Assembly: GCA_036346225.1 (NCBI GenBank)
Contig: JARFIW010000170.1
Coordinates: 12,874,501 to 12,938,500 of the forward strand
DNA: 64,000 nucleotides
Reading direction: 5' to 3'
From: Platerodrilus igneus
Taxonomy: Eukaryota > Arthropoda > Insecta > Coleoptera > Lycidae
Shown here in pieces: positions 1 to 59,972 of the stretch (positions are counted from its first letter, which is position 1; each line of letters begins with the position of its first letter). The translations under genes were made by a program, and so were the position numbers. A model generated the notes under the pieces. The model was not told where the DNA came from, ran no database searches, and worked only from the letters and a program-made list of their open reading frames with translations.

Positions 1-2
1 CA

Positions 3-1796
3 TATTACCGACGTTTTATACTTGGGTTTGCGAACATTGCCAAACCGTTAACAAAATTAACCGCAGATGGACAAGAATATGATTGGAATGACGACTGCAA
101 CAGAGCATTTGAACAACTGAAACGGCTACTAGTTACAGCACCAAATTTGAGTTATCCACGGATGGAGGGGAAATTTGTGTTGGATACCAATGCCAGTAAC
201 ACAGCTATAGGAGGCGTTCTTTCTCAAGTGCAGGACGGACAAGAAAAAGTTATTGGGTATTTCAGCAAGGTCTTGTCACGGCCAGAAAGGAACTATTGTG
301 TGACAAGAAGGGATCTGTTGGCCGTCGTCAAATCCGTAGAGCACTTTTATAAGTACTTGTACGGCCGTAAATTTCTGTTGAGAACAGACCATGCTGCACT
401 GAAATGGTTACTGCAGTTTCGAAATCCTGAAGGGCAAGTTGCAAGGTGGATAGAGCGGCTGCAGGAATATGACTTTGACACAGAACATCGGGTAGGAACT
501 AGCCATCGGAATGCAGACGCTTTGTCAAAGAGACCTTGTCCAGTAAACTGCAATCATTGCTCCAAGATGGAAGAGAAAATAAGTGTCATCCATAGAATGA
601 CGGTAACCGATGATACTTGGCAACTCGAAAGAATACGAGAAGACCAGGAGAATGAAGCCGAATTGGGACGTATTATTGAGTGGAAAAATAGAGGACAACG
701 ACCAGCTTGGGAAGAAATTAGTATTTTAAGTAGGAGCCTGAATGCATACTGGGCACAGTGGGACTCCTTGATGATGGAAAATAGAATCTTGAAACGACGC
801 CTGGAATTTGAAGATGGAACTAAGAGACTTCAAGTGATAGTGCCGAGAAGCAGAGTGCCGGAAGTGTTGCAGCACTTGCACGATGGTATTTCCGGAGGGC
901 ACTTTGGCGTGAAAAGAACTCTCGAGAGAGTGAGAGAAAGATTCTATTGGCTGAACTGCAAAGATGATGTGAAGAAGTGGTGCCGGAAATGTGAATTGTG
1001 TGCCTCTGCAAATGGCCCGAAAGTCCCAATGAGACAGTATAACGTGGGGAATCCTTTTGAGAGGGTAGCCATTGATATAGCTGGTCCGTTTTCTGAATCA
1101 GAGAAAGGAAATAAATACATCTTGGTTGCAATGGATTATTTTACCAAATGGCCGGAGGCATATGCTATACCTAACCAAGAAGCCGAGACGGTTGCAGATG
1201 TGCTAGTCAGGGAGTTGTTTTGTCGTTTTGGAGTTCCGTTGGAATTACACTCCGATCAAGGTCGAAACTTCGAATCGGCGTTGTTTCAAAACGTCTGCAA
1301 GCACCTTGGAATCAGGAAGAATAGAACCACGCCACTTCATCCCCAATCGGATGGAATGGTTGAAAGAATGAACAGGATGTTAGGGAAGTACCTGACCAAA
1401 GTTGTCTCTGAACACCAACGAGACTGGGACCAATATTTACATTTGTTCCTACTGGCGTACCGATCTTCGGTACATGACAGCACAGGATACTCGCCCGCTT
1501 GCGTAATGCTAGGACGTGAATTGCGGCTACCATGTGATCTTCAGTTTGGATTTAAACCTGGAGAAAAGATCGCAGGTGAAGATTACGTTAGTAAGCTTCG
1601 TGAAAGATCAAATAGCATTCACGAAAACGTCCGAAAGAATATCCAGACAGCAAGCGATGGAATGAAATCACAATATGACACGAGAGCACAAGAAGGTGGT
1701 TATCAACCTGGAGATTTGGTGTGGTTGTATAATCCACAAAGAAAACGGGGTTGTCGCCAAAATTACAAAGACAATGGGAAGGCCCGTACGAAGTGA
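3..1796 (+). CDS. Ty3/gypsy pol, 5'-truncated: RNase H and integrase
   Basis: Open from the window edge (frame of base 3). It starts at the end of the reverse transcriptase thumb/connection (YYRRFI..FANIAKPL) and runs through the RT-linked RNase H (IGGVLSQ, then YCVTRRDLLAVV and TDHAALKWL) into an integrase. The integrase has an HHCC zinc-binding region (HDGISGGHFG .. CRKCELC) and the DDE triad context VAIDIAGPF, LHSDQGRNF and DGMVERMNR, so D, D and E are all present. The first RNase H aspartate, expected in DASN, reads NASN here (AAT), which would impair RNase H. The frame ends at 1796 only because of a one-base loss in a G run near 1748; integrase sequence continues in the next frame (1751-2593). 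Family assignment is firm; activity of this copy is unlikely. Confidence 0.92.
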   Translation, partial: YYRRFILGFANIAKPLTKLTADGQEYDWNDDCNRAFEQLKRLLVTAPNLSYPRMEGKFVLDTNASNTAIGGVLSQVQDGQEKVIGYFSKVLSRPERNYCVTRRDLLAVVKSVEHFYKYLYGRKFLLRTDHAALKWLLQFRNPEGQVARWIERLQEYDFDTEHRVGTSHRNADALSKRPCPVNCNHCSKMEEKISVIHRMTVTDDTWQLERIREDQENEAELGRIIEWKNRGQRPAWEEISILSRSLNAYWAQWDSLMMENRILKRRLEFEDGTKRLQVIVPRSRVPEVLQHLHDGISGGHFGVKRTLERVRERFYWLNCKDDVKKWCRKCELCASANGPKVPMRQYNVGNPFERVAIDIAGPFSESEKGNKYILVAMDYFTKWPEAYAIPNQEAETVADVLVRELFCRFGVPLELHSDQGRNFESALFQNVCKHLGIRKNRTTPLHPQSDGMVERMNRMLGKYLTKVVSEHQRDWDQYLHLFLLAYRSSVHDSTGYSPACVMLGRELRLPCDLQFGFKPGEKIAGEDYVSKLRERSNSIHENVRKNIQTASDGMKSQYDTRAQEGGYQPGDLVWLYNPQRKRGCRQNYKDNGKARTK

Positions 1797-2593
1797 TGAA
1801 AAGGATTAATGATGTAGTGTACCGGATCAGAAGATCTCCCCGTGGTAAACCGAAAGTGGTACACTTTGACCGTTTAACATCCTACGCTGGCAACAACCAG
1901 GAAGGCTCGAATAAAGAGAATGGCATTCGACAAGTTATTACTCATAAGCCAAATGTAGATTTCGAGAGTTTTATGGCGGCGTATGGTGGTTCCGCTAAGG
2001 CGAGATTTGGCGTTGTTGTTGAAAAACAGCAAGACCTGTTTAGAGCACCAGAAGAGTACTCCCTTGCACATTGCGTAGCTCAAGATCTGGAAATGTCAAG
2101 GGGAATAGCTGTTGTTTTCAAGAAAAAGTTTGGATGTGTGGATGAATTAGTACAACAGCAGCCAACTGTAGGAAAAGCTTTGGTTCTTCAGGATAAAAAT
2201 CGTTATGTTTACTATCTGGTCACCAAAAATTCTTCATGGCAGAGACCTAGTTATGGACATCTATGGGAGGCTTTGCTGAATCTTAAAGCTCAGATGATGG
2301 AAAATGGAGTAACGAAACTAGCGGTGCCCAAGCTAGGTTGTGGACTGGATCGCTTAGATTGGAGGATAGTCCGAAATATGCTAGAAGTAGTTTTCCAGGA
2401 AACCAACGTCCAGGTCCTTGTTTGTTGTTATCAGCCGGTTGCCTACCAAGACCAACAAAAGAGTGTTGACTGTTATTTCCAACGACGCGGTGGATGCATC
2501 AGAGGAGATAGCTGCCGATACCGTCATCATTCATCGAATTGGCGCCAAAATGTATTTACAGTTACGAGACGTAACGGTTTTAAAGAGGGGTAG
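1751..2593 (+). CDS. gypsy integrase C-terminus fused to TARG1/OARD1-like macrodomain and CCCH zinc finger
   Basis: The 280 codons divide into three parts. Residues 1-45 are the usual gypsy integrase tail (SPKLQRQWEGPYEV .. VYRIRR .. VVHFDRL), which completes the protein begun at 3-1796. Residues about 92-227 match the TARG1/OARD1 class of macrodomains, which remove ADP-ribose from proteins: DLF.AP..YSLAHCVAQD, SRGIAVVFKKKFG, YYLVTK, PKLGCGLDRL. In human TARG1 the catalytic residues are a lysine in the TK motif and an aspartate in GCGLDRL; both are kept here (K159 and D200). Residues 241-259 form a C-x7-C-x5-C-x3-H zinc finger, a type common in RNA-binding proteins. The frame stops just before the 3' LTR, so the extra domains are the natural C-terminus of the pol polyprotein and not a neighbouring gene. 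The apparent start is only a frame entry after the indel; no separate start is argued. Confidence 0.85.
   Translation: MSPKLQRQWEGPYEVMKRINDVVYRIRRSPRGKPKVVHFDRLTSYAGNNQEGSNKENGIRQVITHKPNVDFESFMAAYGGSAKARFGVVVEKQQDLFRAPEEYSLAHCVAQDLEMSRGIAVVFKKKFGCVDELVQQQPTVGKALVLQDKNRYVYYLVTKNSSWQRPSYGHLWEALLNLKAQMMENGVTKLAVPKLGCGLDRLDWRIVRNMLEVVFQETNVQVLVCCYQPVAYQDQQKSVDCYFQRRGGCIRGDSCRYRHHSSNWRQNVFTVTRRNGFKEG
2021..2431 (+). other. macrodomain region (ADP-ribosyl hydrolase type) inside gypsy pol
   Basis: This is the sub-region of the preceding reading frame that carries the macrodomain. The catalytic lysine codon is at 2225-2227 and the catalytic aspartate codon at 2348-2350, by motif alignment with TARG1. 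There are no stops or frameshifts inside it, in contrast to the break just upstream and to most transposon genes in the window. Confidence 0.82.
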
Positions 2594-3190
2594 TGTTGCA
2601 AGCTACTATTAGGCAACCCGTCAAACACACAAGCGTTGTAGGGTCTGCATAGTCTTGAGGATTCTAGAATGCTTCTAGCAATCAAACACACAAAACGCCG
2701 CCAGCACTGTTCATTCTCACCAGACCTGGAAGCTTCTCGTAATTACCAGAAGATGAGTCATATCTTTAAATCTGAGTATATATAAGACCGCTAAGAAATG
2801 CAAGGGTCAGTCTATACTGGAATGTCTAATATAAATTATATCGTGTATAGTGAATGTAGTTGAGCTTTGAGTGTATATACATAAATGTTATATGAGCTAA
2901 ACGTGTCTATTGTACATGCAGCTTGTAGTATACATAAATAGATAGAGCTTGGATTGAATAATAGTTGTGTTAGTGTTGTTAATGGACCTATGGTAAAGAA
3001 GTTAGTTTAAGAAGATATTAGTGCTTGTAAATTCATTAGTGTAATAGTGCTTCATTGTTAAGTGTCCTGAAAACATCTATAAATAAGCCATATACTGTTA
3101 ATTAGACTTGAGAACAGTGAGTAATAAAGACTAATGTTATTACTTGTTTTTTAAATTAAAGGAACGCGGTAGCAGTAGCCTGCTTCAATA
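2594..3190 (+). repeat. probable 3' LTR of the macrodomain gypsy element
   Basis: A purine-rich tract (AAAGAGGGGTAG) directly after the pol stop is followed by TGTTGCAAGC, the expected TG start of an LTR. Inside are a TATA-like box (TATATATAAG, about 2776) and AATAAA at about 3124, consistent with promoter and polyadenylation signals. The right end (near 3190) is a guess because no second LTR copy is in the window. Confidence 0.55.
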
Positions 3191-3594: not shown

Positions 3595-4035
3595 ATAATA
3601 ATCTTATGCTGTTTGAGAGTGGATTGTATTTGACTATCTTATCATGAAGTATAAGGCAATGACAAGATGTATTTGGCAAAACGTTTCTGCTAGTTTCAAA
3701 TTCTAATCTAATATCGACAGTACCAGATTTTAACGCTTCGTTTTGTCTAGAACAATCTATAACTACTAATGGTGCAATACTTCGTAAATCTTCAGGATTA
3801 AAAAGTGGTTCATTTTCCTTTTCGTAGTATGATTGCTGAAACTGAGCATACATCTCATATAACAACGCAGTCTGTTTATTCTCGAACTTCAAATTTAAGT
3901 TATCGTACGGGAAAATTTCTGAATTTAAATATAGTTTCATGTTGGTTAAATAGCAATGATCAAAACGACTGTAGTTGCTCATGTATCTATTTTTCGGTTG
4001 GTTTGGAAACCAACAATCACAAATCTTGGTTTTTC
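3595..4035 (-). pseudogene. C-terminal fragment of an unidentified, possibly capsid-like, element protein
   Basis: Minus-strand reading gives segments such as KLYLNSEIFPYDNLNLKF, APLVVIDCSRQNEALKSG and CLILHDKIVKYNPLS, ending at a stop near 3595. I recall proteins of this appearance as multicopy uncharacterised proteins in insect genomes, and suspect the C-terminal part of a jelly-roll capsid-like protein of a Polinton- or virus-like element, but cannot confirm it. Upstream, a match (FVIVGFQTNRK) lies in another frame, so a one-base indel breaks it near 3985. The fragment ends where the gypsy fragment on the opposite strand begins (about 4036), so the two are fused head to head and a chimeric plus-strand frame (3956-4672) crosses the join. 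Confidence 0.4.
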
Positions 4036-4036
4036 T

Positions 4037-4891
4037 AATTGTGTTAAAAGTTATAAAGTACAAAAAATTTGGTTTAACGCAAAATATCACCCCCAAGTAA
4101 ACCCTACCGAGAGAGTAAATCGAGTGTTAATTACCGCTATCTCTTCCTATATTAATTCAGACCATACTACATGGGATGAACATATCTTTAAAATTGCCCA
4201 AGCTTTGCGTACATCTAAACACGAAGCAACCCAATTCACTCCGTCTTTTCTTGTTTTTGGAAGATATACCCCAATCGATGGGAGTTACTATGGTTTAGTG
4301 CCTGACGATACTAACGTAATCGAATTTGACGATAAAGTACGTTGGGACAAGGACCAACAGTCATTACCTTCTATCTTTAACGACGTTAGAAAAAATTTGT
4401 TAAAAGCTTACGAAAAGAGTAAGGACCATTATAACTTACATAAACGAAATATTTCCTTTGCCTTGGGCGAACAAGTTTGGAAAAAGAACTATGTCTTATC
4501 GGATGCATCTAAGAAATTTTCTTCAAAATTAGCCCCTAAATTCATTCTTTGTAAGGTCACTCGTGTTATTAGTCCCCTTATCTACGAACTTCAGGATGCT
4601 GAAGGAAAACGCCAAGGCAGGTGGCATATTAAAGACCTTAAGCCATTCTCTGCTGACCCAAATGCTACTTAAGTTTTTCACGTTCCATTCTCCTCACGAT
4701 TTACCTAATATTTTTCTGTTTTCACCATCAATTAGTATCTTTAATTACTTAGTCCTTCTCTTATACACCTACGTTTTATACATTTAACTCATTTACCTTA
4801 AACCCTTTGCTTCTGGTTGACTTTTCCTTGACTATACCGTTAGTTATATATCACTTCATTCTCTACACCCCCAAATATAACTCTGTGCTAA
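4037..4891 (+). pseudogene. 3' fragment of gypsy family 2: integrase end and 3' untranslated part
   Basis: The frame to 4672 reads FNAKYHPQVNPTERVNR .. LVFGRYTPIDG .. AEGKRQGRWHIKDLKPF and is nearly identical to the end of the complete element on the minus strand at 10264-10900. Similarity continues past the stop to about 4891 and matches 10045-10263 reversed. The 5' part of pol is missing. Where the complete copy has lost one base after PIDG, this fragment keeps the intact frame, so it records the ancestral sequence at that point. Confidence 0.85.
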
Positions 4892-5729: not shown

Positions 5730-6738
5730 TTGCACAACATGTAGATACTTCCTGTATGTTTGTTGTGGTTTGTTTAAAGTTTTTTTTAATCTTCTTTGAG
5801 AATTAAACCACTCATAGTTGTTAAAATCATCTTTATTTATGTTTCAATTCGTGAGCAAGGACAGTTGTCAAAATAATAAAAATTTCAAGTTTGACATTTA
5901 TGACATAAACTGAAGGTGACTTTGATTTATTAATGTTAGATATACTCCCTGTATGTTTGTTGTGGTTTGTTTAGTATTCTTCTTAATCTTCTTTGGGTAT
6001 TGAACCACTCATAGTTTTTAAAATTATCTTTATTAACGTTTCGATCCATAACCTAGGATCGTTTTCAAAATAATAAAAACTTCAAGTTTGACATTTATGA
6101 CACAAATCAATATAAAAAAACGACTACTTAAGCCTTTTAATAATGCAATTGCACACTTCTTTAATAACCATCCTCTAAATTGTATAAATAGAAACATGTT
6201 AAAAAATGTTTTCCAATTCCCAAGTTATTGAATTTTTACAATAAAAATTAATCAGCTGATTTCATGTTAAGCGTATTGGCTACCTAAAAAAGTCGGTCCC
6301 AGGCCGTAACACAAATTGAAGGCAATTATTCATTTAAATTTTAAAAATTTTTTCTTAGTGTACTCAAACCAAATATTTCAAACATCAATAAATCAAAGTC
6401 ACCTTCAATTTGTGTCATAAATGTCAAACTTGAAGTTTTTATTATTTTGAAAACGATCCTAGGTTATGGATCGAAACGTTAATAAAGATAATTTTAAAAA
6501 CTATGAGTGGTTCAATACCCAAAGAAGATTAAGAAGAATGTTAGATATATTTGGTTTGAGTACATTAGGCAAAAAATTTTAAGTTTCAAAGAATGAGTGC
6601 CTTCAATTTGTGTTGTGCTCTGGGAGCGACTTTGAGGTAGCCAATATGCTTAACGTGAAATCAGCTGATTAATTTTTATTGTTAAATTTCATATAAATTC
6701 AATAACTTGAGGATTGGAAAACATTTTTAAACATGTTT
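5730..6738 (-). repeat. Penelope terminal repeats (3' end of Penelope copy 1)
   Basis: Contains repeated and partly inverted blocks beginning CCTGTATGTTTGTTGTGG and containing ACCACTCATAG and GATCCATAACCTAGGATCG. Two blocks in one orientation (about 5741 and 5941) are followed by an inverted block (about 6360-6540). The piece 6541-6738 continues, after removal of the gypsy at 6739-17503, into 17508 onward: AACAT-GTTT joins CTATTTATACAATT, the uninterrupted order seen at 36048-36066. This is the 3' terminal repeat of Penelope copy 1, which reads on the minus strand. Confidence 0.75.
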
Positions 6739-10263: not shown

Positions 10264-13200
10264 TTAAGTAGCATTTGGGTCAGCAGAGAATGGCTTAAGG
10301 TTTTTAATATGCCACCTGCCTTGGCGTTTTCCTTCAGCATCCTGAAGTTCGTAGATAAGGGGACTAATAACACGAGTGACCTTACAAAGAATGAATTTAG
10401 GGGCTAATTTTGAAGAAAATTTCTTAGATGCATCCGATAAGACATAGTTCTTTTTCCAAACTTGTTCGCCCAAGGCAAAGGAAATATTTCGTTTATGTAA
10501 GTTATAATGGTCCTTACTCTTTTCGTAAGCTTTTAACAAATTTTTTCTAACGTCGTTAAAGATAGAAGGTAATGACTGTTGGTCCTTGTCCCAACGTACT
10601 TTATCGTCAAATTCGATTACGTTAGTATCGTCAGGCACTAAACCATAGTAATCCCATCGATTGGGGTATATCTTCCAAAAACAAGAAAAGACTGAGTGAA
10701 TTGGGTTGCTTCGTGTTTAGATGTACGCAAAGCTTGGGCAATTTTAAAGATATGTTCATCCCATGTAGTATGGTCTGAATTAATATAGGAAGAGATAGCG
10801 GTAATTAACACTCGATTTACTCTCTCGGTAGGGTTTATTTGGGGGTGATATTTTGCGTTAAACCAAATTTTTTGTACTTTATAACTTTTAACGAAATTCT
10901 GAAAATCTTTAGAGATAAATTGTGCACCATTGTCACAAAGGATAATCTGGGGGACACCAAAGATAAGAAAGACATTCTGTTCTAGGAATTTAATTATAGC
11001 AGCGGAAGTAGCTTTACGTAAGGGTTGCACCATAACAAATTTAGAAAACCAATCGGTAACCACTAAAAGATATTGATTACCTCTTTTCGATCGGGGGAGA
11101 GGTCCTAATAAGTGAAGCGATATTAATTGAAAGGGATAAGATACACGTTTGAAGTTACCCATTAAACCAGGGCGAGCATCTTGTGAACTCTTATGGGAAC
11201 CACAAATTTTGCAGCTCTTGATATAGCGACAAACAGATTGCTTAAGTGTGGGCCAGTAATATAATTCAGATATTTTAGCGAGAGTTTTTGTAACACCAAG
11301 GTGTGCAGCAATGGGATCGTCGTGACATAATTTGAGCACCTCACTGCGATTTGCAGTGGGCACGACCAGTTTCCATTCAGGGATATTCGATATTTTATGC
11401 GGGGACAAAGATGCAAATTTATATAGTCTATTATTAGTTACACGAAAGGTAGGAAATTTGTCGGGGGTATCGGAAACTTTTTTAATCATATTGAGGTACC
11501 AGGTATCCAGAATTAAATTTGGAAGTTTAAGAGAAACGACGTCACGAGATAAGGCATCAGGTACGATATTTAATTTGCCAGGCCTATGCCTAACGTCAAA
11601 AGTAAATTGAGATATGCGCAAGTTCCATCTTGCCAAACGACCTGCGGGCTGTTTCAAGTTATTAAGCCAAGTGAGAGCTGCACAATCAGTGATTATGGTA
11701 AAGTGTGTACCTTCGACATATCCTCTAAGTTTCTCGATGCCAAAAATAACGCCCAATAATTCCCGTTCGGTAGCAGAGTATTTTTGTTCGGCAGAAGTTA
11801 AGGCACGGCTCGCATAGGCAATTGGATGTTCTAAACCATTGTTTACCTGGAATAACATTGTACCTAACCCAGTAAGTGAGGCATCGGTTTGTATAAAAAA
11901 CTTATCATCGAAATTTGGAGAGATTAAGATAGGTGCTGAAGTGATTAATGTTTTAATTTGTTCGAAAGCCTGTTGGGATTCTAAATTCCACTCGATAGTT
12001 TGGGATTTCTTTTTATTTTTAATTAAAGCGGTAATGGGTGCGGATATAGTTGAAAGATTGGGTAGAAAAATGCGATAATAGCTAATCATTCCAATTAAAC
12101 GTTTGATTTCGGTAACAGTTTTAGGTGTTTTAAATTTAGTAATAGCATCGACTTTAGCAGGATCTGTTCGTAAGCCTGTCCCATCGATAATAAAACCGAG
12201 AAATGTGAGGGATGAACGACAAAATTGAGACTTTTCCCAGTTTATCTTAAAACCTGCTGCGTTTAAACGTTCTGCAACTTCATTTAATGTGGCGATATGT
12301 TCATCGAAAGAACTTGAGATAACTAAGATATCATCTAAAAACACAAAGGCACATTCCTGGTGTAAGATAGGACCTAACGTTTGATCCATAGTACGTTGTA
12401 AAGTTTGTGGAGCGTTACAGAGACCAAATGGCAAAAAATTATATTCGAAAAGACCCCGGCCTGGAACACAAAAAGCAGTTTTTTGACGAGAAGATAAGTC
12501 GAGAGGTATCTGATAAAAAGCTTGTCTAAGGTCGATAGATGAGATAAATTTTGCGTTACGAAGCCTGCTTAAAATTGAGTCAGTTCTAGGTAGAGGGTAA
12601 GCATCTGAAACAGTCACAGAATTTAACTTTCTGCCATCGAAACAGACACGCCATTCGTCATTCTTTTTCCAAACTAGTAATACAGGAGAGGTCCACGGTG
12701 AATTTGAGGGAGAGATAACACCAGATTCTAACATTTTGTCTATTTCAGCATGTAAATGCTTTTGTAAGGCAGGCGATAAGGGATATTGACGTTGCTTAAA
12801 AGGGAGGGCATCACCTGTAGAGATAACGTGTGTTGCCGTTGTAACACAACCAAGTTCGGGGGTATTAAGTTTGCGAAATTTGTCGATTGTAGCGTTAAGG
12901 GTTACATTTTGGGAGTCAGTAAGAGAGATTTTGTTAGATATTCCTGTAGATGCACAGGAGTTCGTTTTAATAGAGGTTTGCCATGAAAAATCCTGAAAGT
13001 AAAGTGACAGATTAAAAAGTTTACAGAAATCAACGCCTAGTAGAAAGGGATACGCTAATGCAGGCACAATCAAAAATAAAACGTCACGTTCAAGAGATTC
13101 TACTCGAATTTTTAACTTAAGGAAACCAGTTACATGTATTTGATTATCGTCAGCTAAATTTATGGAAGTTTTTTCGGGAATAATTTGAATTTTGATATTT

Positions 13201-13570
13201 TGTTGAGATAATTGATGTAAACCTTCGTTATTTATAAGAGAACATGAAGAACCTGTATCCAATAAAGCAATTACATTTAAGGAACCTATTAAGATAGATA
13301 AGTGTGGACGGTTATCAAAGGGTTTTTTAACAAGTTGTGCAACGGCAGCAGTCTTTTTATGGTAAAAGGAATTGACGGTTTGTAACCACTTAGACCACTC
13401 GGCTGGAGTAGTATAGCATAATTCCTTTAATAAAGGTAAGGCATTTTGTACATTAATAGTAGCGGTATTATTATTAGATAAATTTAATGACGGTACAACG
13501 TTAGAAGTAGTTTTATAATTTGAATTTATTGGTGTCTGGGTCTGTTGAATGATTGGTGTTGAGGGCGATT
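10264..13570 (-). CDS. gypsy family 2 pol: protease, RT, RNase H, integrase (one frameshift)
   Basis: From the N-terminus: a leader overlapping the end of gag; an aspartic protease (ALLDTGSSCSLI, near 13270-13240); a reverse transcriptase (LRQAFYQIPL, LPFGLCNAPQT, FVFLDDILVIS); an RNase H (IQTDASLTGLG); and an integrase with HHCC finger (HDDPIAAHLG .. CKICGSH). The second and third DDE positions (LCDNGAQF and NPTERVNR) are present. The first reads SLHLLGPL where an aspartate before LLGP is expected (CAC for GAC), so the integrase is probably dead. A one-base loss near 10655 moves the last 124 codons into another frame; the truncated copy at 4037-4672 is intact at this point. The pol frame lies -1 relative to gag and is open across the gag stop, so a -1 frameshift is the likely expression route. 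Confidence 0.9.
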
Positions 13571-14587
13571 TTGGTTTCTTGAGATATTCACACCCTGATT
13601 TGAAATATCTCGACGGGAGTTTCCCGATACGTTAGGATTACAGTTGGTGCAGTTAGATTTGTAAATATTAGCGACCACAACCATAACAAAAATATTTCTA
13701 GGGTATGTGCAGACAGTATAGTTATGTCCACTTCGCTTGCAGTTCCAACAGGTAAGTGAGTTGTTAGTAACGGTAGGAGGAACGTTAAGTGTAGATACTT
13801 TACGGGAAGCTCGAACTTGGCAAGCTAAATCAGGTTCTAGAAGACCAGATAATTTCTCGGGTGGTGGTCGATATTTGTTAATTCTTGACCTCACTTCTTG
13901 AAGAGAACGACATAGGTCTTTAAAGTGGGCTAGCGAAGATATGGGCTGTAATGCCAAACGTTCTGAGAAATAGGGGTTTAAATTTCTAAGTAATTGATCG
14001 ATAATTTCGGATTCGGAAGGTTTTTTGTCGAGTCTGCTATATAAAGCTTCTAATGAGGTAATAAAAGAAACAACATTTTCGTCAGGACCTTGGGTTCGGT
14101 TACGTATTTCGTTCCAAAGGTCGTTAATATAGCCATAAGGTAGGAAGTCTCGTTTTAAACACGCAACTAACTCCTCCCAGGTAGAAATTTGGTCTCGTAT
14201 GTTTCTGTACCATATCAACGCTGAGTTTGCGAACAAGTCACCAGCTGAGACAAATAGGTCCTGGTCGGTACACCCGCGAGAGATTTTAAAATCATTGATA
14301 CGATCAAGAAAGGATGATAAAGAGACCTGCGAATCAAACCCTTCGAAAGTGAGACCCCATTTGTATACAGGTATAGATTTTCCTACAGGTTTGGGTGAAA
14401 CAAGAGCGAGATTTGAAAAGGGTGACGATATATCTACGTCTGCATTAGGATTAAGTCTTTCCAGGACAATTCCTTCAAGCAATAACACCTCGGACAACAA
14501 ACTTTGTTTAGATTGAGTCGCTTGGTCGTCGTTATATAAAGATAATAATTCGACACGTTGTTTGACGTGCATTATTCTTGAAGTCAA
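13526..14587 (-). CDS. gypsy family 2 gag
   Basis: A frame of 353 codons. The central part has capsid character (LFVSAGDLFANSALIWYRNI, LKRDFLP), followed by a nucleocapsid knuckle CWNCKRSGHNYTVC that fits C-x2-C-x4-H-x4-C. It ends in a basic, Asn/Gln-rich tail. The pol frame is already open over at least the last 45 bases. The size and order (gag, then protease-RT-RNase H-integrase) are normal for Ty3/gypsy. Confidence 0.88.
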   Translation of the reverse strand: MTSRIMHVKQRVELLSLYNDDQATQSKQSLLSEVLLLEGIVLERLNPNADVDISSPFSNLALVSPKPVGKSIPVYKWGLTFEGFDSQVSLSSFLDRINDFKISRGCTDQDLFVSAGDLFANSALIWYRNIRDQISTWEELVACLKRDFLPYGYINDLWNEIRNRTQGPDENVVSFITSLEALYSRLDKKPSESEIIDQLLRNLNPYFSERLALQPISSLAHFKDLCRSLQEVRSRINKYRPPPEKLSGLLEPDLACQVRASRKVSTLNVPPTVTNNSLTCWNCKRSGHNYTVCTYPRNIFVMVVVANIYKSNCTNCNPNVSGNSRRDISNQGVNISRNQNRPQHQSFNRPRHQ

Positions 14588-16151
14588 TCTCCTAGCTCGA
14601 TATTACTAGCAGCAGGATCCGTTCTATTTATTATACCCGATATATCATCCAAAGATAATTTAATTTCCGATACGTTAAGGGCCAGTCGCCAACGGGTTTC
14701 TTTAAGATAGCAACGCTTTTCGTTTCCTGTGCCAAAATGGCCCTGAGCTGAGATCTCCTATCATTCTGATTACTAGCTGCGATAATATTCCTACACTCCA
14801 GCTCGTAGATCAATTCGAGGGATTTTAAATGTGAAACGTTCATTGTGAATAGAATATTCAAGACACGATATATAAAATATAAAATAGTTAGGCAATTCGG
14901 GAGGTAATAAACGTTACAGCTACTTTAAGTTAGTACGGTACGGTATTTAGGGGTAAGAACTTGTTAGAAACGTCACCAATAAAGAATAATATGCTAATGT
15001 TAAAGCGTTAATCAATCAACACACTAAAGAAACACATTTAGGGTGTATGCAAGCAAAATCAATGTTCAATTAAATACATATTTTGTTGATAATTACAGAA
15101 AGGGGCTCCAAAATAGAAAATGCACGCAGGTGATATGTTATTTAACCTATAAAAACAACAACCTATAGTCAAACACTTCTTAAAAAGATGTAATAAGCAA
15201 TTTATTTCACTCAGTGTTTTTAAACACAAGATTTTCTTGTGAAGGTATTTGAGATATTGTTAATTGAAACAGTTTTTACAATGAAACGTAGAAGGATGTG
15301 CATTGAAGTTTCAAAACGGGCTTTAAGATTAAGAAAACGAACAAAGATATTTTAATAGGTAATTTTGTAAATAAACTGTATTTAAAGACATAAGGTAAGG
15401 TAAATGCTTAACAAGGGGATATCTTCTCGATAAGTCACAGAAAAAAGCCCTTCAATTTAGAAAATACACGCATGTAATGAATTATTTAGCCAATAACCAC
15501 AAAAATCCATACTTTAACGTTACATAAAAAGATATTAAAAGGCAATTTATTTCGATAACGTTTGTAACATAAGGTTTCTTTAAAAACGAGTTTAAATAAT
15601 AGTTAACAAGTGATTAAAACACTTTTTTTTTTTTAATAAACAAAGTAGAGAATCTTAGGTACAGTTTTTTTTATTATTTACGGCAAGGGTTATATTTTAG
15701 CTGATATAGGGTTTTTAATTGTTACAATAAACGGTATTTAAGAAATGCAATTGAAATATTTATTATACTTACTTGAAAAAGTAAGGTTATCCCATAAATC
15801 CTTGGAGTTTATTTAGACACTACACACATTTTTAGATACATAACACATATTTGCAGATAAGTGCAGTTTGAATTTCATTATAAAACTACAATAAGATACA
15901 TAGATTAGCAATTTGATAAAAGATACATGTTACAATAACCAAGTTTACATTACAAGCCTAATCTGTCAATTCTGAAAATATTCTAGTGAATTTTTCCAAG
16001 TTGCCAACATGAAATTAAAACTTCACAGATATCTTAGGTAAGATAGATCATAAAATTTAAGGAGATTATTTAAATGAAAAAACATGTTTAAAATTAATCT
16101 AAACATTCCATAGGTATAGTACCACCTAAATAACACGTTGGAGCGCTAAAT
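14588..16151 (-). other. gypsy family 2 leader between 5' LTR and gag
   Basis: About 1.5 kb of AT-rich sequence with no gene I recognise; a 76-codon frame at 14631-14861 is unsupported. Directly inside the 5' LTR (minus strand, two bases after its TAACA end) is TTAGCGCTCCAACGTG, where the tRNA primer-binding site should be. I cannot name the tRNA. Confidence 0.5.
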
Positions 16152-21314: not shown

Positions 21315-24057
21315 TTAATAAATGCTGAAAAACCGTGGTACGGTTTTGACGCTCAAAGTGTCCCGAGACAGTATTCTAAACATTATTTCTGTCAACAATT
21401 GTTCAGAATCTATGTAGCCATTTATTATTTTGTGTAAGAAAACGAGTAGAGCTGCCTGTCTACGCATTTCAAGGCTTTCTATACCTGCAAGTTGTAATCT
21501 CACATTGTATGTAAGGTTTTTGTAAGGGTATCCTAGTTTCCAAAGCAGAAACTTCATGAATGTGTTCTGCACTCTCTCTAAGCGGTTCTTGCTAGAGTTG
21601 TAAATTGGCGACATATAATACAATTGTACTCTAAGATACTGCGTACTAGACAGTTATACACTGTTTTTATTGCCTTAGCATCACTAATAGTTTCACAATT
21701 TCTTCTTATAAACCCTAGCATTTTAAATCCTTTTGCAATTACGTTATCTATATGATAATTAAAGTTGAGGTTTGGATCAAAAATAACCCCCAAATCGTTT
21801 ATCCTATCAACGGATTCCAGAGCACAATTATTGATTTTGTACTCATATGTTAAAGGCTCTCGCATTCGATAGAAACACATTACTTTGCATTTCGCTATGT
21901 TTAGCTTTAGGTGATTTGTATTGCACCATTCAATTAAACTGTTAATGTCATTCTGAATATTTTTACAGTCTTATAAGTTTCTGACAGTAGCAAAAATTTT
22001 CAGGTCATCTGCATATAGTAGACACCTGGATTGACTAAAAATAGACACAATATCATTGATAAATAACAAAAAAAGAATTGGACCAAGGTGTGATCATTGC
22101 GGTACACCTGAGAATACATGTATTTCTTTAGAAGTTACACCACATAGTTTCACATGCTGATGACGACCATGTAAGTACGATTCTATCCAGCCAAGATAAG
22201 AACCACTCACTCCTATTGCCTTTAACTTCTGTATTAATAATTTATGACAAACACTGTCAAATGCTCTTGACAAATCTGTATAAATTACATCAACTTGTGA
22301 TCCACTGTTTACCAAAAAGTTCTGGAAGATGGCCAAATTGGTGGCTGTTGAGCGGCTTTTATAGAAACCATGTTGCTGATTTCCTATCTGTTGCTTGTAA
22401 GTATAAAAAATTTCTTGTGAAATTATAGCTTCAAATATTTTAGCTATGACTGAGATTAGAGAAATTCCTCTGTAATTTTTTATTTCGTTCTTTGAACCTG
22501 ATTTGACAATCGGATAAATCATTGAAAGCTTCCATATTTGTGGAAAATATGCTTCACTAAATGATTTTTGAAATAATGTACAAAGTGGAGTCACTAAGGA
22601 TTGTTTACATTTTTTTATAAATACAGAAGGTATACAATCACAACCAGGGCTCTTACTACAATCCAGGGAAGCAATTATGTTTAATATTTCATCTTCGGTA
22701 AAGAAATGCATTGATAATGTGCCATTGATATTACTGGTTATATTGTAGAGTTCATTTCCATCATGTTGTGTGTAGCAGGATTGAAAATGTTCAGCAAAAG
22801 AATTTACTATTGCTACAGAATCTTCCATTGTAATATTGTTGTATACCATTAGTTTGGGTATACCTGATTTCTTTTTCATAGAGTTATATATGACCAAAAA
22901 TATTTTAGATTAGATGGTATCATTAATTCAGTGTTCGTTACGAATGTTAGGTAACACAAATCTATAATAAATTTACATTCCTTTTTAGCTTGCGAGTATT
23001 GGTTGTAGTCTGTTTGTAGACCGGTATGTCTGTATTTACTATATAGTTTATTTTTAAATGCCAACAGCTTTTTTAATTCTGGACTATACCATTTTGGAAA
23101 TTTGTTGTCTATAATAGTTTTGGATGGGACATATTTTCTTATGGCTAAGTAAATTATGTCATAAAACTTAAGTATTGATTCATCGATGTCCTTGCATTCT
23201 TTTAAAAAATTCCAATTAGTCTCTGCGAAAAAGTTATTTATTGCAACAAAATCAGCCTTATTAAATAGCCGAACAGTGGTTTTGACTTTATTACTCATTA
23301 TGGGTATAGCATTTGGACAAAAGAGTATTTCCAGTGCTGGATGATATACATCTAAAGAGTAAACAGCAAAAGATGATTTCATCACTAAAAAAGTCCATCT
23401 CATCACCAAGTACTAGATCTAAAACTCTTCCGAGGTTGTTAAAGATACCATTGTATTGTTGGAGGTCTAAGTAATAAATGCTGTTAACAATCATTTCTGA
23501 GGCAGGGCTCTCAAATTTTAAAGGTACTAATTGGCTATTTTCCAAGGACCACTGAATATCTGGACAATTGAAGTCTCCACATATAAGTAATTTATAGTCT
23601 CCATCGTGTGCCTCACATTTTCGATAGTATTTATTAGTTCCTGGTATACATGTGCCTGTAGGTTGGGTGGTATGTAAATAGCCCCAAGGATAAATTTGGT
23701 ATTCCCATATTTAACCTTTACCCAGACATCTTGAAACAACAGATTTTCATTGTGCTTCAGTTCCTCTATTGTAAAATTTAATTTTGTTGCTACAACTACC
23801 TCTCCTCCTCGACATTTAAGAGCAGTATAGTCTCTATCCTTGCGGTATACTTGGTAGTGATCTCCAAATAACTCTGAACTCAATATATCATGTGAAAGCC
23901 ACGTTTCTGTTAGGATTATAAAATCAAAGTCAGCAGATTGTATAGCTGTGGATACTAAATGTATTTTTGTTCTTAAGCCTCTCACATTTTGGTAGAAGAG
24001 GCTAAATTTGTGTGATAATGCTCTTGGTGCACGTACTGTGCTCTTATTATGAGGCAC
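21315..24057 (-). pseudogene. LINE ORF2: endonuclease and reverse transcriptase, frameshifted
   Basis: Segments in order: an apurinic-type endonuclease (FSLFYQNVRGLRTK, FIILTETWLS, GGEVVVA, LGAIYIPPN; 23527-24057); a linker (22876-23545); an RT (CSKSPGCDCIPSVFIKK, NYRGISLISVIAKIFE, YTDLSRAFDSVCH, VFSGVPQ; 22094-22897) and LLYADDLKIF (about 22000-22020); and a C-terminal part (INDLGVIFDPNLNF, LVRSILEYNCII, ERVQNTFMKFLLWKLGYPY). At least four frame breaks and one stop show it is dead. Confidence 0.88.
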
Positions 24058-24070
24058 AGCAGGTTTATTT

Positions 24071-25310
24071 TTATGAAAAATGAATTTCAGAGGCTTGTCT
24101 TCGAAAAATATATCGTCTTAGTAAAGCTCTTTTTGGCCAACTTTCTGGCTTTGTTACTACATCATAATCAGCAAAATCAACTCCAATGCGAAAGCATGCA
24201 AATGTACCACGAGTTTGCAAAGATTCACACGTGATAGATTTTCCTGGTAAGAGATTGGTTCGATGGAGTTGTACTGTTTCCAATGAAGTATTTTGTTTTA
24301 TTCGCCCTAGAAACAGCCACGCACGTTTATGTACTGCACATAGACCAGAATTAAGCTTGTTGTGGGAACCAGTATCAACAGCAACGATACGGGATTGTTT
24401 CCTACTTTGGCAATGTTTCTTTTGCACCGTAATATAATGATCTTCTTCTGGTTGACTTGCGAGTTGTCTATTTTCGTCTTCAATAGAGTTATGAACTGTT
24501 AGTGAGTTTCCATTTTTTGTGGTAATTTTGTTGTCGAGCTTATTAGTAGTTACATCCTTATTAAAAGTTTGCTTTTTAATCTGATTTTTAGTGTTTTGCT
24601 TTACAGCTGTTGTATACAATTTATTGTCTTTAGTTGAGAGTAAATGAGTTTTAACTTGAGATAGTTCAGTTTTACTTTCATCATAATTTTTATTCATATT
24701 ACTTTGGATATTTATTTCCATCACGTCTTGAATAGTAGTATTATCAACAGTCTCAATGTTTGTAAATACACTTTTATCTACAGCCTCAATATTTGTAAAT
24801 ACACTTCTATCAACCACATTGCATATTCTTGTTGGGTTCTCTTTATCACTTGTTAATAGTCTAATAAGGTCAATGTTGCTGTCCTTCAAAATTAATATTT
24901 CTGTTTTTAATTTCCTTATCTCTTGATACAATTTTTCTGTTTGATGGTTTATGAGATCTTGCAAAATAATAGCATAATCCTCACTTTTCAGAAACTGTAT
25001 TACATCATCTTTTAAGTCTACTTTATTGCTCTTTAGATTAGTTGATGAATTTCTAAAATCCTCTACTTTACTTAGTTCCAATTCACTCACATAACTGCCA
25101 TTTGTTGATAACCCTTTGATACACTGGTTACATTGATATATTAAATTATCACTTGTGGCTTGTTGATAGATGCCAAATCTTTCGCTGCATGATGAATGCA
25201 CCTTATTGTTGCACAAGCAACACTTTACAAATTTATTTATTGCCTTTTTCTTACAATATGAACATATATTTGACTGATCAGAAATAACATGTTGTTCACC
25301 GTCAGCCAAG
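24071..25310 (-). CDS. LINE ORF1 with N-terminal PHD-like zinc finger
   Basis: An open frame of about 410 codons. Near the N-terminus is a cysteine/histidine cluster (CSYCKKKAINKFVKCCLCNNKVHSSC .. CNQC, written with gaps) typical of the PHD-like finger in ORF1 of CR1/Jockey-related LINEs. Next comes a predicted coiled-coil part (LYQEIRKLKTEILILK) and a long polar stretch. The last part (FLGRIKQNTSLETVQLH) resembles the basic region of such ORF1 proteins. No convincing ATG is visible at the extreme 5' end, where the element meets Penelope sequence, so a few 5' codons may be missing. Confidence 0.7.

Positions 25311-27211: not shown

Positions 27212-59972
<32,761 letters not shown>

Follow-up and report, generated by a model that had tools for sequence, protein, structure and literature searches.

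A family of Ty3/gypsy retrotransposons in the beetle Platerodrilus igneus (Lycidae) carries, as the C-terminal module of its Pol polyprotein, a macrodomain of the TARG1/OARD1 class followed by a CCCH zinc finger, giving the order protease–reverse transcriptase (RT)–RNase H–integrase–macrodomain–CCCH. The module lies in a 64,000-nucleotide window (the whole stretch of DNA analysed; GCA_036346225.1, contig JARFIW010000170.1, positions 12,874,501 to 12,938,500 of the forward strand), in which positions 1–3187 are the 3′ part of a long terminal repeat (LTR) retrotransposon. An initial annotation, made from the sequence alone, had claimed that the frame of the integrase tail continues without a stop into a macrodomain and a CCCH finger. 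Indeed, frame 1733–2593 is open and contains all three parts, and the motifs LAHCVAQD, GIAVVFKKKFG, YYLVTK and GCGLDRL, the residues K159 and D200 and the finger spacing C-x7-C-x5-C-x3-H were found where it had placed them. The features of this copy are listed below.

3–1796, plus strand: part of pol with RNase H, the integrase zinc-binding domain and the integrase core, an open frame matching Pfam RT_RNaseH, Integrase_H2C2 and rve, all above their cut-offs; its 5′ side is cut by the window edge and the remainder lies upstream on the same contig, in locus L009
1733–2593, plus strand: open frame reading through the integrase C-terminal domain, a linker, the macrodomain and the CCCH finger to the stop; the integrase core lies in a different frame
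1781–1876, plus strand: integrase C-terminal domain (Integrase_p58_C, PF22938; 53.5 bits, cut-off 27)
2009–2431, plus strand: TARG1/OARD1-type macrodomain (residues 92–232 of the frame read from 1736)
2225–2227, plus strand: lysine codon, pairing with the catalytic K84 of TARG1 (residue 164 of the structural model; K159 of the initial annotation)
2348–2350, plus strand: aspartate codon, pairing with D125 of TARG1 (model residue 205; initially D200)
2471–2527, plus strand: CCCH zinc finger, C-x7-C-x5-C-x3-H, read from the sequence; Pfam CCCH matches are below cut-off
2582–2590, plus strand: polypurine tract directly 5′ of the 3′ LTR, read from the sequence
2594–3187, plus strand: 3′ LTR, 97.2% identical over 598 columns to the 5′ LTR, which lies outside the window in L009

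The element family in its own genome

The initial annotation had proposed a search for further copies with the same integrase–macrodomain–CCCH order between LTRs, and such copies proved numerous. With the macrodomain and finger as query against the 2.71-Gb genome, 150 of 14381 first-look candidates were scored and all 150 matched at 92–100% identity, placing the module at no fewer than 150 sites; all genomic copies described here were located with the module itself as query. The module frame reaches up to 1467 codons in other copies and exceeds 800 codons at 18 of the 150 places. Among 20 fetched copies, 19 (the window's included) have two direct LTRs around an internal region (283–602 aligned columns, 93.5–99.8% identical), with no pair in L014, and in four a pol frame longer than 1400 codons ends in the module. 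L024 and L026 have gag ahead of pol, with pol in the −1 frame and the two open frames overlapping by 13 bases; no canonical slippery heptamer was present in the 34 bases inspected around the gag–pol overlap of L024, L026 and L013. A zinc knuckle is encoded in the gag frame of L024, the pol of which gives consecutive Pfam matches in the order protease, RT, RNase H, integrase and macrodomain, followed by the finger. The tract AAAGAGGGG precedes the 3′ LTR in all 19 copies with LTR pairs (polypurine tract). A four-base target-site duplication flanks seven of these 19 (L011, L022–L026 and L028) and was not seen in the other 12, the boundaries having been placed automatically and not by hand.

In the window copy, the integrase C-terminal tail alone shares the frame of the module and the frame of the integrase core stops at 1796; its pol is broken, because core and tail sit in different frames. 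Such a break is what an assembly artefact or a one-off fusion might leave, but both are contradicted by all 150 scored places of this genome and by proteins from other beetle assemblies, and we put their probability close to nil. Other family members keep both domains. The claim that the frame stops at the LTR border held for the window copy, the stop codon of which (2591–2593) abuts the LTR start (2594), but not as a family trait: the exact-border stop is unique to this copy, and in all 18 other fetched copies for which an LTR pair could be recognised the frame reads through into the 3′ LTR.

The macrodomain belongs to the TARG1 class and retains its active site

The match lies inside the macrodomain profile (Macro, PF01661; 26.2 bits against a cut-off of 22 in frame 1733–2593), and the module matches human OARD1/TARG1 far beyond chance (phmmer E 1.7e-38), which rules out a chance match. 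In a Foldseek search with the predicted model, the first eight chains (six entries) were all TARG1, in agreement with VIA-align, so that the proposed class assignment is upheld by both sequence and predicted fold. The predicted fold superimposes on human TARG1 (4j5r) with 0.8 Å over 141 residues at 44% identity; this match is ungapped, with model residues 92–232 equivalent to 12–152 of 4j5r, and the lysine and aspartate pair in the same way in the sequence alignment. The range of 4j5s_C is shifted by 3, and the other TARG1 entries together with the sequence alignment agree on K164 and D205. K84 of human TARG1 is reported as catalytic, and a K84A mutant as giving no rescue (PMC8501950). After TARG1, the next-nearest named folds were DarG macrodomains, although the NCBIfam equivalog cut-off for DarG was missed (48.7 against 250 bits); alphavirus and coronavirus macrodomains were also among the structural neighbours. 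DarG macrodomains remove ADP-ribose from DNA. We take D125 to be the catalytic aspartate of TARG1.

Both residues are kept, as had been claimed, throughout nearly the whole family. The lysine is present in all 43 genomic copies compared and the aspartate in 42 of them. From 300 proteins examined, we obtained 175 macrodomain rows (174 database proteins and the window), many of them near-copies from one beetle species, with the lysine in 166 of 169 readable rows and the aspartate in 162 of 164; in a dereplicated set of 29 rows the lysine was kept in 27 and the aspartate in 28.

The finger scores just under the Pfam zf-CCCH cut-off (19.4 in the window and 20.0 in L024, against 20.5), and the other listed Pfam CCCH models are likewise below cut-off for these two copies. 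All 43 genomic copies retain its four ligands, as do 141 of the 142 protein rows (window included) that have letters at all four sites.

Two viral proteins also matched the model in BFVD. The best match, VP8 of Kadipiro virus, has 39% identity over 207 columns with a root-mean-square deviation of 14 Å and so is not one rigid match; a protein of a thrips flavi-like virus matches at 33% over 140 columns with 1.4 Å. Macrodomains resembling TARG1 may therefore occur in insect RNA viruses too.

Relatives and origin

With the whole 3′ frame as query we found 62 proteins, 22 of which cover at least 80% of it; all 22 match the macrodomain profile, 21 the Pfam integrase tail and 17 the finger profile (the sequences being predictions, in some cases from spliced gene models). 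An integrase query added the best 120 of 1905 matches, and a third search listed 120 of 190 proteins, those listed coming nearly all from Aromia moschata and Molorchus minor; the third set enters the residue counts, and the macrodomain trees draw on the whole-frame and integrase searches. Named bearers belong to ten beetle genera (Aromia, Molorchus, Exocentrus, Callosobruchus, Gonioctena, Diabrotica, Leptinotarsa, Harmonia, Pyrocoelia and Aquatica) and to the leafhopper Macrosteles, with Macrosteles, Leptinotarsa and Aquatica represented by short proteins only.

Among 121 integrase rows (from all fetched proteins plus the window), 13 carry the macrodomain (12 and the window), and all 13 fall inside one clade of 16 (support 99*), the remaining three rows of which (P0066, P0067 and P0076) end 61–99 residues past the core. 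On this tree the domain must have been gained once and lost or truncated twice, three changes in all. The other 108 rows have no macrodomain; their tails past the core are 50–110 amino acids long in 80, longer in 22 and shorter in six. Among the matches listed, the nearest integrases outside the clade are those of other arthropod and fish Ty3/gypsy elements, some deposited as 412, 297 or 17.6.

In an unrooted macrodomain tree of 41 rows (omitting rows at least 88% alike and the degenerate P0059 and P0019, and with no beetle host gene among the rows), one branch with support 100/99 separates 29 retroelement rows from 12 non-retroelement TARG1-type rows, the latter chosen by absence of integrase sequence (three named OARD1, one from a mosquito and eight unnamed, two of these with an RWD domain). 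A quick tree of 57 rows gave the same main split (99*). The two groups also differ at position 122, which is arginine in 162 of 171 readable retroelement rows, whereas the 12 others have alanine or glycine in eight, arginine in two and lysine in two. Within the retroelement clade, P0016, P0024, P0033 and P0042 form a subclade (99/92), in which P0042, like its near-copy P0039, ends before the finger position could show. The initial annotation had proposed that the lineage captured a host deADP-ribosylase. Capture of a TARG1-type macrodomain by a retrotransposon lineage is supported, and the tree fits one such event, but no donor can be named from these sequences.

Three proteins inside the retroelement macrodomain clade, P0039 and P0042 (both Macrosteles) and P0059 (Leptinotarsa), are publicly named OARD1-like. 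P0039 and P0042 retain upstream residues resembling the integrase-tail linker, and from their sequences look like retroelement pieces rather than host OARD1. Some insect proteins annotated as OARD1-like or C3H1-type may accordingly be pieces of retroelements. A scan of viral_contigs with alignment A2 returned 26 pattern matches and no confirmed relative.

Purifying selection on the module

A comparison of nonsynonymous and synonymous change across copies, as the initial annotation had advised, bears out a maintained domain. We compared variants seen in one copy only (singletons) with variants shared by at least two copies in 43 copies (five loci were dropped as duplicates of longer ones), using five Fisher tests. 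Because these copies had been chosen for protein similarity to the module, amino-acid differences may be reduced; as controls for this bias we used the singletons from those copies and two segments outside the query, integrase and RNase H. Variants common to several copies show purifying selection. The ratio of nonsynonymous-or-stop to synonymous changes in the macrodomain was 80:36 for singletons and 16:25 for shared variants (p=0.0013), compared with 202:87 and 46:60 in the integrase core (p=2e-6) and 91:44 and 20:26 in RNase H (p=0.005); the finger gave 16:5 and 3:6 (p=0.042 uncorrected, lost on correction for five tests). Scaled by opportunity, the shared class came to 0.21 in the macrodomain (singletons, 0.74), 0.16 in the finger, 0.25 in the integrase core, 0.27 in RNase H and 0.65 in the short linker, so that in the active lineage constraint on the module is close to that on integrase.

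These data bear on whether the module is a functionless passenger, acquired by chance read-through or as a transduced gene fragment. A loose C terminus is evidently tolerated, as the frame enters the LTR in most fetched copies, and constraint is weaker in the linker that leads to the macrodomain (shared variants, 12:6). We nevertheless reject this explanation as highly improbable: the macrodomains form one clade from several beetle genera and a leafhopper, the active-site residues and zinc ligands are conserved and shared variants are depleted of amino-acid changes.

Proposed function

We propose that the module is an eraser of ADP-ribose. Assembly of Gag–Pol would place it inside the particle beside integrase, RNA and complementary DNA (cDNA), where it would act as an ADP-ribosylhydrolase on the RNA or cDNA of the element (at uracil, thymine or phosphate ends) or on element proteins, with the CCCH finger holding the enzyme on single-stranded RNA; with ADP-ribose erased, reverse transcription and integration could proceed. 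Judged from sequence and predicted structure, we give this reading an even chance, and evasion of host ADP-ribosylation by the module is plausible. Human TARG1 is reported to reverse thymidine-ADP-ribose in DNA (PMC8501950), uracil-ADP-ribose in single-stranded RNA (PMC13036486) and phosphate-end ADP-ribose on RNA (PMC11833690). The uracil study also reports that fly Targ1 and Targ3 are active on a synthetic uracil-ADP-ribose probe (PMC13036486). The published substrates of TARG1 point to nucleic acids as much as to proteins. Also in favour of an eraser are the TARG1 fold and active site, the DarG macrodomains among the neighbouring folds, the conserved catalytic pair, the purifying selection on shared variants and the precedent of an orchid Gypsy element with an eraser of an RNA mark (PMC9289625), as well as a few proteins of Tribolium that are reported to group at the base of the PARP7/11/12/13 branch (PMC4245714). 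A more specific claim, to which we give somewhat less than an even chance, is that a lineage of insect retrotransposons carries a nucleic-acid ADP-ribose eraser with which it cleans its own RNA or cDNA; this would reveal a hitherto unknown transposon defence based on ADP-ribosylation in beetles and their relatives.

TARG1 also hydrolyses ADP-ribose linked to protein, and the macrodomains of alphaviruses and coronaviruses are thought to strip ADP-ribose from proteins as a counter-defence. A protein-directed role of this kind, which the initial annotation favoured, could have Gag, integrase or host signalling proteins as targets; the shared fold class and the presence of these viral macrodomains among the structural neighbours agree with it, but we consider it unlikely.

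The main rival is that the domain reads ADP-ribose and does not remove it. Chromovirus integrases bear a chromodomain at the C terminus, and the macrodomain, which directly follows the integrase C-terminal domain, occupies the same spot; it could replace the chromodomain and guide insertion towards chromatin that bears ADP-ribose, such as that at PARP1-marked breaks. TARG1 has been solved with bound ADP-ribose (4j5s), and this reading keeps some standing because the lysine or aspartate is lost in a few members. Binding alone, however, should not need the two residues retained in nearly all readable rows, and a CCCH finger points to RNA rather than chromatin. Reading of this kind therefore appears rather unlikely, and removal of ADP-ribose is favoured over it because the catalytic pair is conserved near-universally.

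Several observations weigh against the eraser. We know of no insect ADP-ribosyltransferase that acts on retrotransposons. The lysine is replaced by arginine in P0070 and P0071 and by isoleucine in P0059, and the aspartate by glutamate in P0071, by glycine in P0274 and by histidine in one of the 43 genomic copies; P0070 and P0071 may be decayed copies or may mark a switch to binding only. P0016, P0024 and P0033 have the tail but no finger, so some elements can evidently do without it. Mammals offer indirect support at best: ZAP/PARP13 is described as restricting retrotransposons, but the PARP-like domain of its long form as unable to ADP-ribosylate (PMC4982230).

If true, the eraser reading predicts an ADP-ribosyltransferase-based brake on insect retrotransposons. 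The active site kept across beetle genera makes it a testable claim that ADP-ribosylation restrains mobile DNA in insects, perhaps through base or phosphate-end marks on RNA and cDNA, the roles of which in animals are hardly known.

Other features of the window

No second copy of the module was found within the window by tblastn, and no Rfam family at gathering scores. A second, different gypsy-like element with gag-like and pol-like frames lies at 10264–14602 (minus strand), and an inverted fragment at 3950–4672 (plus strand) has an integrase end almost the same as that of the second element. A 197-base unit is repeated at 5745–6106. Fragments at 22094–24117 (minus strand) and 45575–46333 (plus strand) were read by eye as non-LTR retrotransposon endonuclease and reverse transcriptase, and a host-like open frame at 51415–52044 (minus strand) is presumably an MCM helicase exon, which we take to be MCM3.

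Comparison with known systems

Human TARG1 (OARD1, C6orf130; 4j5r, 4j5s and 2eee) shares with the module the macrodomain fold and the equivalents of K84 and D125, but is a small host enzyme, whereas the retroelement domain is fused to the end of integrase, has a CCCH finger next to it and constitutes a separate clade. The DarG antitoxin macrodomain (5m3i, 5m3e and 5m31) is more distant (25–26% identity) and belongs to a bacterial toxin–antitoxin context. RNA viruses carry macrodomains that undo host ADP-ribosylation. Many viral genomes are reported to encode TARG1-like proteins, but few of these have the complete set of active residues (PMC4245714).

The initial annotation knew of no gypsy lineage with this arrangement, and none of the papers listed by searches aimed at this fusion in open-licence PubMed Central (without preprints and with few subscription papers) named it. 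The gain of a macrodomain by an LTR retroelement is nevertheless not without parallel. For transposable elements, the sole precedent that we met is that of some fish endogenous retroviruses, for which a review mentions additional open reading frames (ORFs) for macro-domain or CNPase proteins (Basta et al. 2009, via PMC4977317); the passage does not state the macrodomain class, and these are additional ORFs of retroviruses instead of the tail of a Ty3/gypsy pol. Bdelloid LTR elements are reported to capture other enzymes (PMC5408684). An orchid Ty3/Gypsy lineage is described as having captured an eraser of an RNA mark, an AlkB demethylase for N6-methyladenosine (m6A) that is active in vitro (PMC9289625), although the chemistry differs, the enzyme is encoded in an additional ORF and the host is a plant. 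The kind is thus already known; what we have not found described in these searches, and what the beetle elements add, is a TARG1-type member, its place in pol, the accompanying finger and its spread.
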